Positions 1,309 through 26,551 of a stretch of 64,000 bases of DNA are shown piece by piece. The stretch's first letter is position 1. The number at the start of each line of letters is the position of its first letter. The stretch is from positions 1 through 64,000 of IMG/VR virus record IMGVR_UViG_3300035667_000058. One strand, 5' to 3'. The notes under the pieces were generated by a model, which was not told the origin of the DNA, did no database searches, and saw only the letters and a list, made by a program, of their open reading frames with translations. The position numbers and the translations under genes were made by a program. This DNA is from a virus.

Positions 1309-2528
1309 TTGCCCTCAAGGTCCCGAGCCTTGCCAAGAAGTGCTGCGTCGCGCGGTGGCACCGGCTCGGTCTGCCGCGCACGCCAGTACGCCATCAACTT
1401 GTCGGTGAGCGTGCGGGCCAATGCAACTTCAGGCGCGCGCGCTGTCGCGGTAGACTGTACCACCTCTTCGACCTTGACGTCGATTGCCCCCATGTCTCTT
1501 AGCTTAGCTTCCTGCACTGCAGCCGCTACGCGAGCCTCGGCACGCATGTCGCTTGGCACGTAGTAGCGAAAGCGCACCTCGGCGCCCACGAGTGCCGAAC
1601 GCTCGGGCGCGCCATGCCAGCCAACGACCCAGCTGCGCGCACCCTCGGGGTTGTTTTCTGGGTCAACGCCCCACTGGTCCTCAATGAGAAACATCGGCGC
1701 GCACGGGGTCGCGATGCGTTCCCAGCGCATGCACTTGCTGCCCTCGAAGTCGGCGATGATGTAGCCCTTGGACTCGGTTTCGCCGAAGCTCGTGCGCCGG
1801 GGCGAGCCCGGGTAGACCACCGGCGCGTTGCAGGTGCCGCTCTGCACGGTCCATTCCTGCGGCAAGTGGATGTGCCCGAGCGCGATGAAGTCCGCGCGCG
1901 CGAGGGACAGATCCTCGATGCCGAGTTCGAGGTCGCAGCCCACTAAGGGCTGGCCCGAGCTCACGCGCGAGCCCCGGACCATGGCGTGCATGAGCAGGAT
2001 CTTGGGCACGTCGCCGCCAGCTTGCTCAACGCCGATGTCCATCTCGTTGCCGACCCATCTGAGCACGTTGCGCAGCGCGTCGGCCGCAATGCGATCGGAG
2101 TCTTGTTGTGCTACCCCCTCGGCTGCGGCCAGCGTGGCGAGCACCGATGCCTTGGTCGGCCACGCGACCGCGCCGACCACTACACCGCGTAGGCCATGCA
2201 CGCCCACCGCTTCCTCGACGGTGATCGGGTGCTTGCCCTCAAGCCGACCGAAGATCGCCAGGTCGAGCGGCACGTCATGGTTGCCGCGTACTACCAGCAC
2301 CGGCGCGATCTCCGCGAGCGCTTGCAGCCACTGCGCCACAGCGTCGCGCTCGGTCGGTGATGACTTGCGCTCGAAGATGTCGCCCGAGTGCAGGATGGCA
2401 TCGACGTTGCGCTGGGCGATGTCCTGCGCGATGAAGTCGTGCACGTGGATGCACTCGGCGAACCGGCCCGACGGCGCATCAAAGAAGTGCGAGTCGGCGA
2501 TCACCGCGGCGCGGTACGTGGCCACCAT
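1290..2528 (-). CDS. SbcD/Mre11-like DNA exonuclease subunit
   Basis: A 412-residue calcineurin-type metallophosphoesterase. The phosphodiesterase motifs appear in order: IADSHF near the N-terminus, HSGDIFE, VRGNHD, LLMHA and LGHIHL. These supply the His, Asp and Asn metal ligands of SbcD/Mre11 nucleases. The start chosen is the ATG at 2528, which overlaps the TGA of the upstream gene as ATGA; a TTG one codon earlier is less likely. The downstream partner is the SbcC-like ATPase, so both subunits are present. Likely role: processing of DNA ends or hairpins during phage replication and recombination. Confidence 0.88.
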   Translation of the reverse strand: MVATYRAAVIADSHFFDAPSGRFAECIHVHDFIAQDIAQRNVDAILHSGDIFERKSSPTERDAVAQWLQALAEIAPVLVVRGNHDVPLDLAIFGRLEGKHPITVEEAVGVHGLRGVVVGAVAWPTKASVLATLAAAEGVAQQDSDRIAADALRNVLRWVGNEMDIGVEQAGGDVPKILLMHAMVRGSRVSSGQPLVGCDLELGIEDLSLARADFIALGHIHLPQEWTVQSGTCNAPVVYPGSPRRTSFGETESKGYIIADFEGSKCMRWERIATPCAPMFLIEDQWGVDPENNPEGARSWVVGWHGAPERSALVGAEVRFRYYVPSDMRAEARVAAAVQEAKLRDMGAIDVKVEEVVQSTATARAPEVALARTLTDKLMAYWRARQTEPVPPRDAALLGKARDLEGKCDSTG

Positions 2529-3730
2529 CAATATTTCTCCGACGGGTTCGTGGTGAGCTCCTGTTGCTGGCCGACGGGCTTACTCGCTGCGCTCACGTTC
2601 AGCGCGTTGCCGGGCACGCTCGCCCCGTCGACCAGTTGTGCGGGCGCGCTGGTGGCAGCGGGCGTATTCACCTCGCCCGTCTCTTTGTCGTAGTCGCTCC
2701 AGTCATCCTCGGCGGCCGTGCCGATGGGCGGCGGATCGTGCGGCGGTAGTTGGTGGTGCGTCGGGCCCGGTGTCATGTGCCGGGGTTGGCCGCCACCGTA
2801 GAGCGCTTGGCGACTGCCCAAGAACGCATCGGCAGTCTTGCCGGCAAACATCATCTTGAGCGCGGGGTCATCGGTGACCCCGGTGAACATGATCTTGACG
2901 ATCACGAACGGCTTTTGCAGATCAGCACGGCTGTACTTGCTGCGCACGCCGAGCCGTCGGATCACGCGATTCATGGCCTTTGACTCTGCGTGGCGCAGGA
3001 TGAATTTACGCGTCATCGGCAGCTCTTTGTCCTTGCTCGCAAGCATGGCCTCGGAGCCATCACGCAAATCCATCTCGACCGAGCCGATTTCAGTGCGCAA
3101 CGTGCCGTCGAAGTTTCGCACGTACCCAACGGCCCGGTAGTGCACGTAGTGAGGATCGCGCCCGTTATCCAAGCGCGAGCACTGTGCAGCATCCCAGTCG
3201 ATGCCGGCCGCGGCGCTGATCTTCGCGAGCGCCGTCTTGTCTAGGCCGCGCTCGGCACTGTCTGGGTGGGGAATGCCGTAGGTCTCGCGGTCAACGTCGA
3301 TGTACACGCAGCTGACTGCCAGCGCGCAGCCCGCCGGCAGCTGTCCGCAGCTGGTTTGCGGCGTGATCAAGTGGCCGACCTGCGACGCAGTGGCCATGAT
3401 GGCGCCGATCTCATCGGGCTTGCTGTAGGTGCCTTGTAGATCATCGGGCTGGCGAGTGACGATGGCGCTGCCGCTGTTGCCACCCGCAGGCGCCGCAGCC
3501 GGCAGCGCGCTCGAAGCTTTGGGCGCAGCCTGAGCGCCACCTGCTTGTCGCCTTGCGATCTCAGCGCGCAGCCCGGCCACGAGCTTTTTGTCGCGGTCGG
3601 GATAGCGCGACTCACCTGCATCGAGCGTCTTGCTGATGCGATCATTCCAGTACGTCAGTGATGAGGTCTGCGCGGCGTCGAGCGTCATGCCCTTGTCGTT
3701 GCCGCCGGGGATCTTCAGTTGCTCGCTCAT
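2528..3730 (-). CDS. Putative recombination protein (single-strand annealing-like)
   Basis: A 400-residue protein starting MSEQLKIPGG, with GGAG about 11 nt upstream of ATG 3730. The N-terminal 90 residues are Ala/Gln-rich and probably flexible. The core from about residue 95 to 290 contains a conserved-looking block, RHAESKAMNRVIRRLG, followed by KYSRADLQKPFVI. I have seen this arrangement in uncharacterised phage recombination-module proteins but cannot place it in Bet, Erf or Rad52 families from sequence alone. The Pro-rich tail is probably disordered. It is first in the operon with the SbcD/SbcC-like pair, ATGA-coupled to it, which supports an annealing or DNA-pairing role. The function is an inference from context. 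Confidence 0.55.
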   Translation of the reverse strand: MSEQLKIPGGNDKGMTLDAAQTSSLTYWNDRISKTLDAGESRYPDRDKKLVAGLRAEIARRQAGGAQAAPKASSALPAAAPAGGNSGSAIVTRQPDDLQGTYSKPDEIGAIMATASQVGHLITPQTSCGQLPAGCALAVSCVYIDVDRETYGIPHPDSAERGLDKTALAKISAAAGIDWDAAQCSRLDNGRDPHYVHYRAVGYVRNFDGTLRTEIGSVEMDLRDGSEAMLASKDKELPMTRKFILRHAESKAMNRVIRRLGVRSKYSRADLQKPFVIVKIMFTGVTDDPALKMMFAGKTADAFLGSRQALYGGGQPRHMTPGPTHHQLPPHDPPPIGTAAEDDWSDYDKETGEVNTPAATSAPAQLVDGASVPGNALNVSAASKPVGQQQELTTNPSEKY

Positions 3731-23646: not shown

Positions 23647-23886
23647 ATGACGCTCATCGCCCGATCACGCACCCCGAACCCGCGGACCCTGCGCACCGCG
23701 CTCTGCGTTGCGCTTGTGGCAGCGCTGGTCACGGCCGTTGGGAGCGCGGCGGCGCTCGGGCTTGGGCTTGAGATTGGCCGGCGGCTGTGCTTGCGGTTAT
23801 GGCCCCGCTGGCCCGCGGCCGAGGTGTTCGGCGCTGCGACGGCCGATGACTTGGCCGCGCAGTGGGCAGGCGAGGGCGAGTCATGA
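23647..23886 (+). CDS. Small membrane protein
   Basis: A 79-residue protein with one transmembrane segment (ALCVALVAALVTAVGSAAAL) after a basic N-terminus, then a basic and an acidic patch. ATGA overlap with the methyltransferase gene. Unknown function. Confidence 0.5.
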   Translation: MTLIARSRTPNPRTLRTALCVALVAALVTAVGSAAALGLGLEIGRRLCLRLWPRWPAAEVFGAATADDLAAQWAGEGES

Positions 23887-26288
23887 GCAGCAACAACACA
23901 GTCCGCGCTCACTGCGAGCGTAACGGCCCTACTGGTGAGGCCGCGGCGGATCCTCCCGCGGTGGGCGCGGACGCTGTACCCGTGCGCGTGCTGTGCGGCG
24001 ACATGCGGGAGGTGCTCGCGGCCATGGCGCCCGAGAGCGTGCACGCGATCGTGACCGACCCGCCGTACGGGCTTGAGTTCATGGGCAAGCAGTGGGACCA
24101 GCAGGTGCCCGGCGTTGAGTACTGGCGGGCGTGTCTGCGCGTGGCCAAGCCCGGGGCGTACTTGCTGGCGTTCGGGGGCACGCGTACGGCGCACCGGCTG
24201 GCGTGCGCGATCGAGGATGCGGGGTGGGAGCTGCGCGATTGCGTGTGCTGGCTGTACGGGTGCGTCACGCCGGATACGAAGGCGCTCTCGCGGCGCGGCT
24301 GGCTGACGCATGACGAAATCACGCCGCAAGACGAACTCGCACAATGGTCACCCACGAGCAGACAGATCACATGGGCACGTGCTGAGCGCATCAACGTCTG
24401 GGATTTCGCAGGTGAGTTGGTCCACCTGCAAAACCGCCACACTGATCAGCTACTGACACCGAACCATTCGGTGCACGCCGTGGTTCGTCGACATGCGCGG
24501 GACGATGCGCCGACTCGGCATGAAGTGGTGCAAGCCGGTGAGCTAAAGCCCTGCTGGCAGGTGCAGATCCCGATGTCTGGCATTCTGAACGAAGGTCGCG
24601 AGATCGATCCCGAATACGCCTATATCGTTGGGTGGTGGTTGACCGATGCCTGGCGTCACGGCGACGGCAAGGCGTGCATGTTTTCGCAGTGCAAGCCTGA
24701 GAAGCTCGCGAAGTTGAGAGCAGCTCTGTCGCCGTACGCACCGAGCGAATATGTAAAACAGGCACGCGAGCCGCAGCACTCCAACGAGCACACATTCTAT
24801 GTAACCGGACCGCTGGCGAGACGCTTGATCGAAGAGTTCCCCGCGCGCGTGCTGAGCTGGGAACAACTCGGGTGGTCGCGAGAAGCTCGCATGTCATTGA
24901 TGCGTGGTCTTCTGGACGGCGATGGGACCGAGCGCGCCAGTCAGCACGGCAGCGCTTTCTGGTCCAAGGACCCTGCGCGGAGGGAAGTGGTCCTAGCCAT
25001 TTGCGTCAGCATCGGCTGGCGCGCCTACATCGACGTCGACAACGACTGTGTGAACTTCCATCGTGAGCGCGGCGCCACGCAGCTTCAAAAGCGACACCGC
25101 GACCGAGCGCCAGCACGGCCGTACAATGGCAAAGTCTGGTGCCCGACGATGCCAGAAGGCACATGGATAGCGCTTCGCAACGGGCGGCCATTCATCACGG
25201 GCAACAGTGGCTTTCCGAAATCGCATGACATCAGTAAGGCGATCGATCGTGAGCTTGGTGCGGTGAGGGAACTGACTCGTGCGGGGCGAGTCCAGCGAGA
25301 CGGTTACGGCGACGATTGGGATACAGGTAGCAGCGAAAGCCGCCCGCGCTATGACGCACCCGCCACGCAAGCCGCGCAGCAGTGGCAAGGCTGGGGCACT
25401 GCGGCCAAGCCCGCATGGGAGCCCGTGTACCTCGCGCGCAAGCCGTTTCGGGGCACCGTCGCGCAGTGCGTGCTCGAGCATGGCTGCGGCGGGCTGAACA
25501 TTGACGGGTGCAGGATTGGGACCAGTGAGGACTTGAACGGCGGCGCGTACTCGTCTGATGGCGGGCGCGACGGCGCTGCGTACCAGCTGCGCGGCGAATG
25601 CGGCCAGTACAAACAGCCGCTCGGCCGATGGCCGGCGAATCTGGCGCTGGACGAACGGGCGGCAGAAATGCTGGATGCTCAGACGGTCGGGCAAGTGCAC
25701 GGGGCGGGCTGCCGTCGAGCGGGCTCAAGTGCTCCGCGCGAGAGCACTTCGGGCGAGCACGTCTATAACCCGCGGGTCACCACGACCGGCGCAATGCATC
25801 GCTTCGGCGACGACGGCGGCGCCTCACGTTTCTTTTACACGAGCAAGGCGTCCCGCTCCGAGCGCGAAGCCGGGCTCGAGCGCTTCACGCCCGCCATCGT
25901 CAACGACGGCCGCGACACCAGCATGGACACGCCCTACCAGCGCGGCGACACCTTACGCAAGTGCCTTCATCCCACGGTCAAACCGATCTCCCTGATGCGC
26001 TGGCTCGTGCGCCTGGTCACCCCGCCAGGCGGCATCGTGCTCGACCCGTTCACGGGCTCGGGCAGCACGGGCGTAGCCGCAGTACTCGAGGGCGCGCGGT
26101 TCATCGGTGTTGAACTCTCGCCCCAGTACGCCGAGCTCGCGACCGCGCGCATCGCGCACGCCAGCGACGAGGACGACGGCCCGCAGCTGACGCTGTTCGA
26201 CAAGCAGGAGATAGCCCGGCCGGTCAGGCCCGCGCAGACAAGCCTGTTTGACGACGTGCCCAATGACGAGCACGAGGGCGCCCAATGA
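23883..26288 (+). CDS. DNA methyltransferase (DPPY class) interrupted by an intein
   Basis: A continuous 801-residue precursor. The host protein is an N4-cytosine/N6-adenine methyltransferase: VRVLCGDMREVLAAM, catalytic TDPPYGLEFMGKQWD (DPPY at residues 59-62), and C-terminal VLDPFTGSGSTGVAAVLEGA, then FIGVELSPQYAELA, the S-adenosylmethionine-binding motif. Between WLYG (residue 126) and SGFPKSHDISKAID a 315-residue intein is inserted. Splicing would restore about 486 residues. SGFPKS...ISKAID and GRWPANLALDE are hallmarks of this phage/bacterial methyltransferase family. It is the third methyltransferase in the window and has no partner endonuclease. ATGA-coupled to its neighbours. Confidence 0.9.
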   Translation: MSSNNTVRAHCERNGPTGEAAADPPAVGADAVPVRVLCGDMREVLAAMAPESVHAIVTDPPYGLEFMGKQWDQQVPGVEYWRACLRVAKPGAYLLAFGGTRTAHRLACAIEDAGWELRDCVCWLYGCVTPDTKALSRRGWLTHDEITPQDELAQWSPTSRQITWARAERINVWDFAGELVHLQNRHTDQLLTPNHSVHAVVRRHARDDAPTRHEVVQAGELKPCWQVQIPMSGILNEGREIDPEYAYIVGWWLTDAWRHGDGKACMFSQCKPEKLAKLRAALSPYAPSEYVKQAREPQHSNEHTFYVTGPLARRLIEEFPARVLSWEQLGWSREARMSLMRGLLDGDGTERASQHGSAFWSKDPARREVVLAICVSIGWRAYIDVDNDCVNFHRERGATQLQKRHRDRAPARPYNGKVWCPTMPEGTWIALRNGRPFITGNSGFPKSHDISKAIDRELGAVRELTRAGRVQRDGYGDDWDTGSSESRPRYDAPATQAAQQWQGWGTAAKPAWEPVYLARKPFRGTVAQCVLEHGCGGLNIDGCRIGTSEDLNGGAYSSDGGRDGAAYQLRGECGQYKQPLGRWPANLALDERAAEMLDAQTVGQVHGAGCRRAGSSAPRESTSGEHVYNPRVTTTGAMHRFGDDGGASRFFYTSKASRSEREAGLERFTPAIVNDGRDTSMDTPYQRGDTLRKCLHPTVKPISLMRWLVRLVTPPGGIVLDPFTGSGSTGVAAVLEGARFIGVELSPQYAELATARIAHASDEDDGPQLTLFDKQEIARPVRPAQTSLFDDVPNDEHEGAQ
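24261..25205 (+). mobile_element. Intein with LAGLIDADG-like homing endonuclease motifs
   Basis: Encodes 315 residues from Cys1 (CVTPDTKALSRRGW, block A) to Asn315 (NGRPFITGN, block G), followed by Ser as the first C-extein residue. Block B is LLTPNHSV with Thr66 and His69. Two endonuclease helices are visible: YIVGWWLTDAWRHGDG (121-136) and MRGLLDGDGTER (about 214-225), each with an acidic residue at the LAGLIDADG position. The penultimate residue is Gly instead of the usual His, a known variant. The segment is visibly less GC-rich than its flanks, consistent with independent mobility. Removing it joins ...CWLYG to SGFPKSHD..., an uninterrupted motif in homologues I know. Confidence 0.9.
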
Positions 26289-26551
26289 AAGCTCTCACCA
26301 TCCCGGCGCTCGCCCTTGCCATCTTCATCGCCAGTCTGCCGGCATGGGCCACCGTGAGCAACGAGCGCGCAGCGGGCATCCTCGACCATCAGGGCTACTA
26401 CGATCCGCGGTTCGCGGGCTACCGGTACCTGGTATGCGGGGGCGACCTGTTCGTGACCAAGTTCGTTGCCCGCGCGCCTGACGGCGAGTTTGTAACGGGC
26501 TACGTGTGCTGCGGCTTGGTGCAGGCCTGCACGTTGCGATGGGAGCAGTAA
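26285..26551 (+). CDS. Small secreted protein
   Basis: An 88-residue protein with a classical signal peptide: MKALTIPALALAIFIASLPA then WA before the predicted cleavage. The mature part contains three or four Cys (LVCGGDLFV, YVCCGLVQACTLRW) that could form disulphides. Exported, perhaps periplasmic. Overlaps the methyltransferase stop. Function unknown. Confidence 0.6.
   Translation: MKALTIPALALAIFIASLPAWATVSNERAAGILDHQGYYDPRFAGYRYLVCGGDLFVTKFVARAPDGEFVTGYVCCGLVQACTLRWEQ

Follow-up and report, generated by a model that had tools for sequence, protein, structure and literature searches.

Does the 315-residue segment that separates the two halves of a phage DNA methyltransferase encode an intein and, if so, by which route would it splice and how did it come to lie in this gene? 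The segment was found in the window, a 64,000-nt stretch of DNA taken from a virus record of 66 kb. The methyltransferase ORF (23883-26288, plus strand) encodes an N6/N4 (beta-order) DNA methyltransferase that matched PF01555 in Pfam (E 1.1e-26) and phrog_67 in PHROGs; a GTG at 23862 is a possible upstream start. The intein and both extein halves share one open frame, and translation reproduced to the base the element that the original prediction had placed at 24261-25205, with 315 residues running from Cys1 to Asn315 and Ser at +1. We are nearly certain that this element is an intein of class 1, complete in length and equipped with a LAGLIDADG homing-endonuclease domain; as it shares its insertion site with the mycobacteriophage DNA-methylase intein already known, the two are allelic.

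The predicted TPNHSV block B (intein residues 66-71) and both LAGLIDADG-like motifs are present in the translation (Table 1). Cys1, T66, H69, D221, C294, G314, and N315 are invariant in a 23-member alignment of the intein family, and the class 1 residue set is complete in the window intein, namely a nucleophile at position 1, the block B TxxH, the terminal Asn, and Ser+1. The penultimate residue had also been read correctly as Gly rather than His; Gly314 is common to all 23 aligned members, and block F of the window intein holds no substitute His.

Table 1. Positions in the window of the intein, its motifs, and the methyltransferase halves that flank it.
Feature	Positions	Strand	Remarks
N-extein, 126 aa	23883..24260	+	ATG at 23883; PF01555, phrog_67
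DPPY motif IV, in N-extein	24057-24068	+	
Intein, 315 aa, Cys1 to Asn315, +1 Ser	24261..25205	+	stop-free translation, family alignment, structure prediction
Block A, CVTPDTKALSRRGW	24261..24302	+	nucleophile Cys1, the same in all 23 aligned members
Block B, TDQLLTPNHSV	24441..24473	+	T66, H69 invariant; B12 = Val
LAGLIDADG motif 1, YAYIVGWWLTDA, residues 119-130	24615..24650	+	acidic residue D129
LAGLIDADG motif 2, MRGLLDGDG, residues 214-222	24900..24926	+	acidic residue D221, invariant
Block F, YNGKVWCPTMP	25122..25154	+	F4 = Cys294, invariant
Block G, FITGN	25191..25205	+	G5 Thr313, penultimate Gly314, Asn315
C-extein, first residues SGFPKSHDISKAID	25206..26288	+	
DPFTGSG motif I, in C-extein	26043-26063	+	
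Methyltransferase stop codon	26286-26288	+	

As a single sequence, the intein gave weak matches in Pfam, NCBIfam, and PHROGs (LAGLIDADG_3 at 0.19, phrog_85 at 9e-4) that fell under the Pfam cut-offs for inteins and LAGLIDADG domains, while phmmer returned chance matches only from the PDB, so that a profile was required. The Pfam check for intein blocks proposed at the outset thus came up short for the single sequence, although blocks A, B, F, and G are all present in the 23-member alignment. Since the single sequence lies under the Pfam thresholds, the evidence for an intein comes from aligning the family, from the predicted structure, and from empty sites in homologues. The window intein has matches over at least 80% of its length in 148 phage records, and its full-length homologues in viral contigs reach 56% identity. 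A profile of the family matched the solved inteins AceL NrdHF and Mtu RecA as well as the endonuclease regions of PI-PkoII and PI-SceI, and LAGLIDADG_3 was found in 16 of the 23 aligned members. AlphaFold2 predicted a HINT plus LAGLIDADG structure (pLDDT 94.4, pTM 0.92), and Foldseek comparison of this model with the PDB aligned it along its entire length with the PI-SceI and TliVMA/PhoVMA inteins (E values as low as 3e-14) and gave fold matches to I-DmoI and PI-SceI for the LAGLIDADG endonuclease. Its best match in BFVD was the DNA methylase of Mycobacterium phage Atcoo (E 1.5e-30). On the evidence of the model, the window intein has the HINT fold.

The intein interrupts the methyltransferase at WLYG/SGFPKS, and comparison with intein-free homologues bore out this split, the junction being exact in Mycobacterium phage Mahavrat, whose methyltransferase reads WLYG-SGMPKS without interruption, and in 80 further homologues returned by a viral-contig scan with the extein alignment. 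A script scored the site as uninterrupted in 76/80, which is not a population frequency because such a scan favors intein-free genes; the other four sites are likewise empty but carry a changed residue (Val at +1 in L038 and L039, YAQGFPKS in L052, and YFSGFPKS in L066). At exactly the equivalent point, the methyltransferase is interrupted by 981 nt in Lilac and by 999 nt in StAnnes. Together with earlier hits, scans seeded by either the intein or a small intein alignment identified a homologous intein at an identical junction (...G/C...GN/SGFPK) in more than 20 loci. These derive from contigs of cultured phages and environmental viruses, from one Actinomycetes MAG, and from one Streptomyces plasmid; the junction matches that of the window in Lilac, StAnnes, and the viral-contig loci L014, L017, and L030. 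The MAG locus (L035) and the plasmid locus (L037, Streptomyces sp. ITFR-21) carry the methylase intein allele outside recognized phage records and are possibly prophage or plasmid-phage elements.

The +1 residue is Ser in most methylase homologues other than L038 and L039; these two, at 61-62%, resemble the window methylase more closely than any other intein-free homologue. Because Ser, Thr, or Cys is needed at +1, the Val-bearing L038/L039 allele would be unable to support class 1 splicing. A relative of the intein is also found in another protein at L028 (3001-3951) and L029 (495-1445), where the +1 residue is Thr (NDIH/C...GN/TVTAAK).

These comparisons bear on whether the segment could instead be a non-splicing insert or a true methyltransferase domain. 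An insert of the first kind, similar to the out-of-frame HNH insertion of ShiLan, is known in other members of this methyltransferase family (PMC11855218; BUCT618). However, the segment has a complete predicted HINT fold and every splice-block residue, and no hidden endonuclease was apparent in its other frames, where a search of the window insert for out-of-frame or antisense endonucleases gave no convincing Pfam match. The original prediction had named the presence of the segment in all homologues as grounds for rejecting an intein, but most homologues are uninterrupted and the intein reading stands, making a domain or inert insert hardly credible. A self-splicing intron acting at the RNA level has a practically negligible probability: while phage genes can carry introns, no Rfam match was obtained in 23800-26400, even at E 1, and the segment is open and encodes a HINT protein.

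If the segment is an intein, to which class does it belong? Class 3 inteins are defined by Trp at B12, Cys at F4, and Thr at G5 and lack an A1 nucleophile (PMC5050341). The window intein has the F4 Cys and G5 Thr together with Val at B12 and Cys at A1. The Val and Cys1 leave the defining set of class 3 incomplete, which favors an assignment to class 1. A class 3 or mixed-class intein, in which splicing would start at Cys294 of block F rather than at Cys1, would account for two of the three WCT residues, since the F4 Cys is invariant and the G5 Thr is found in 21/23 members. It is nevertheless very unlikely, given that every member has Val or Ile, never Trp, at B12, that Cys1 is invariant, and that a Trp plus the lack of an A1 nucleophile is what defines the class (PMC5050341).

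The penultimate Gly raises the related question of whether splicing is impaired or regulated. A phage RDF intein with a penultimate Gly splices completely, already at time zero, and its splicing is strongly slowed when this Gly is changed to His; the penultimate His is usual but not essential in phage inteins (PMC5050341). Since Gly is present at this position in every member of the family and the RDF intein splices completely, we regard it as a family trait that does not point to a defective or regulated intein. The idea that the penultimate Gly, with the invariant F4 Cys and the G5 Thr, marks a mechanistic sub-type lying between class 1 and class 3, or an intein tuned to release methyltransferase activity at a set time of infection, is very doubtful indeed. 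The original prediction had further suggested that a modification enzyme inactive until spliced could delay DNA protection; slow or conditional splicing would then act as a timer for methylation of the phage DNA. The precursor is probably inactive, since the insert lies between DPPY and the SGFPKS core, but the rapid splicing of the related RDF intein, complete at time zero with the same penultimate Gly (PMC5050341), makes delayed protection less likely, and most homologous methyltransferases have no intein to set such a timer. Nothing found in this analysis supports delayed protection, and we consider splicing-controlled timing extremely improbable.

Under the class 1 assignment, the methyltransferase would first be made as an 801-residue precursor, in which the HINT domain would catalyze an N-S acyl shift at Cys1, transfer of the chain to Ser+1, and cyclization of Asn315 without help from a penultimate His. 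The products would be a 486-residue methyltransferase, joined at WLYG-SGFPKS, and the free intein. During co-infection, the endonuclease would cut methyltransferase genes with an empty site, and repair would copy the intein in. We infer that splicing and cutting by the window intein persist today; in the literature cited here, we found no demonstration of splicing or endonuclease activity for any methylase intein.

Have the intein and its host gene travelled separately? The window intein shares 50-56% identity with those of L009, L002, and L010 and 28-30% with the mycobacteriophage alleles, whereas the methyltransferase part shows the opposite trend, with 37-40% identity to L009, L002, and L010 and 46-49% to the mycobacteriophages. 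The intein tree groups the window with L009, L002, and L010 with a support of 100/100. The extein data rejected this group, which had been fixed from the intein tree ahead of the extein test (AU p = 0.00024); long branches in the extein tree weaken the exact p-value but not its direction. The intein has thus spread separately from the gene that hosts it, in line with homing. No co-conversion tract was evident relative to the closest empty relatives, L038/L039, since mismatches around the junction (6/24 nt) were no more frequent than in the rest of the gene.

Whether the endonuclease is still functional is less certain. Both LAGLIDADG acidic residues, D129 and D221, are retained, so the endonuclease may be active; the final residue of motif 1 is Ala rather than Gly, which leaves activity likely, judging by sequence, but short of certain. 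Alternatively, the splicing part could be intact and the endonuclease decaying, such that the intein is a vertically inherited remnant that has lost homing. Members of this kind are expected from the homing cycle, and the L027 intein has lost its motif 1 acid (AKG); the replacement of the last Gly of motif 1 by Ala in the window could be read the same way. However, the presence of both D129 and D221, the high confidence with which the endonuclease domain is predicted, and the movement of the intein independently of its host gene make such decay unlikely, although a realistic prospect. We thus favor a mobile intein whose endonuclease is probably active.

Several related methylases carry endonuclease genes in other arrangements. 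The 484-kb uncultured phage LR756508.1 (locus L007, 298387-303597) has a methylase intein (1771-2826 of the locus) at the same site as the window, in which the in-frame LAGLIDADG domain is missing and an HNH ORF (1856-2737; PF13392, E 8e-9) lies in another frame. The intein frame remains open across the 294 codons of the HNH gene, with 0 stops compared to 17 expected by synonymous resampling (0/20,000 as low). In the cited literature, we found no description of an intein whose endonuclease gene lies out of frame, and the HNH gene of L007 had no relatives in a scan. Escherichia phage BUCT618, whose methylase belongs to the same family as that of the window, has a ShiLan-type out-of-frame HNH insert downstream of SGFPKS, where the open host frame is only mildly unlikely by chance (0.035). 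The L007 and BUCT618 findings are possibly of more interest than the window intein. The intein-bearing methylase of L002 has a second, N-terminal insert (1957-2794) between DPPY and GFMGKKWD, which contains an antisense ORF (1972-2775, minus strand) of 268 codons with Cys-pair (zinc-finger-like) motifs. This ORF looks like a free endonuclease from its sequence features, with no significant match in Pfam.

The capsid protein of the window phage has matches in Vibrio, Enterobacter, Synechococcus, Rhizobium, and Pseudomonas phages (30-35%), and its terminase has matches in Aeromonas, Paracoccus, and Rhizobium phages (up to 39.5%). Based on these relatives, the host is probably a proteobacterium, although this is unproven.

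How does the window intein compare with known systems? The insertion allele is already published. Kelley et al. (2016) listed the DNMT-1 and DNMT-2 inteins in mycobacteriophage DNA methyltransferases (PMC5050341), and Gosselin et al. (2023), who reported 21 intein-bearing methylases among 271, described Dorothy_75 (PMC9957025). Methyltransferase inteins had been expected to be rarer than terminase inteins, which is a fair reading of the 50 TerL1 inteins compared to 7+4 methyltransferase inteins counted in 2016 (PMC5050341). The window intein opens no new mechanism. What is new is a divergent intein subfamily (window, L009, L002, and L010) in a phage with head genes like those of proteobacterial phages. 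The published methylase allele, described in actinophages, is thereby extended to a phage that probably infects proteobacteria, and the conflict between the intein and extein trees is one more clear-cut instance of homing-type transfer among unrelated phages.

The VMA inteins PI-SceI (1vde) and TliVMA/PhoVMA (7qsu, 7qst) have the same HINT plus LAGLIDADG architecture but share only ~10% identity with the window intein and reside in another host gene. The ShiLan domain (PMC11855218) is a mobile insert in the same methylase family; in contrast with the window intein, it is an out-of-frame HNH gene at another site and no intein. Phage phosphoesterase inteins (Tripl3t, MrGordo) match the window intein over residues 1-315 at ~24% identity. 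The mycobacteriophage RDF/metallophosphoesterase intein (Bethlehem gp51), whose splicing has been shown experimentally (PMC5050341), has the same penultimate Gly but a different host gene and insertion site. The mycobacteriophage DNA-methylase intein (Dorothy_75; DNMT-1/2) shares with the window its insertion site, host-gene family, LAGLIDADG domain, Cys1, F4 Cys, FITGN end, and Ser+1, although the two are only 28-30% identical, the window intein falls into a separate subfamily with L009, L002, and L010 (50-56%), and the capsid and terminase relatives of its phage, in contrast with the mycobacteriophage carriers, mostly infect proteobacteria.
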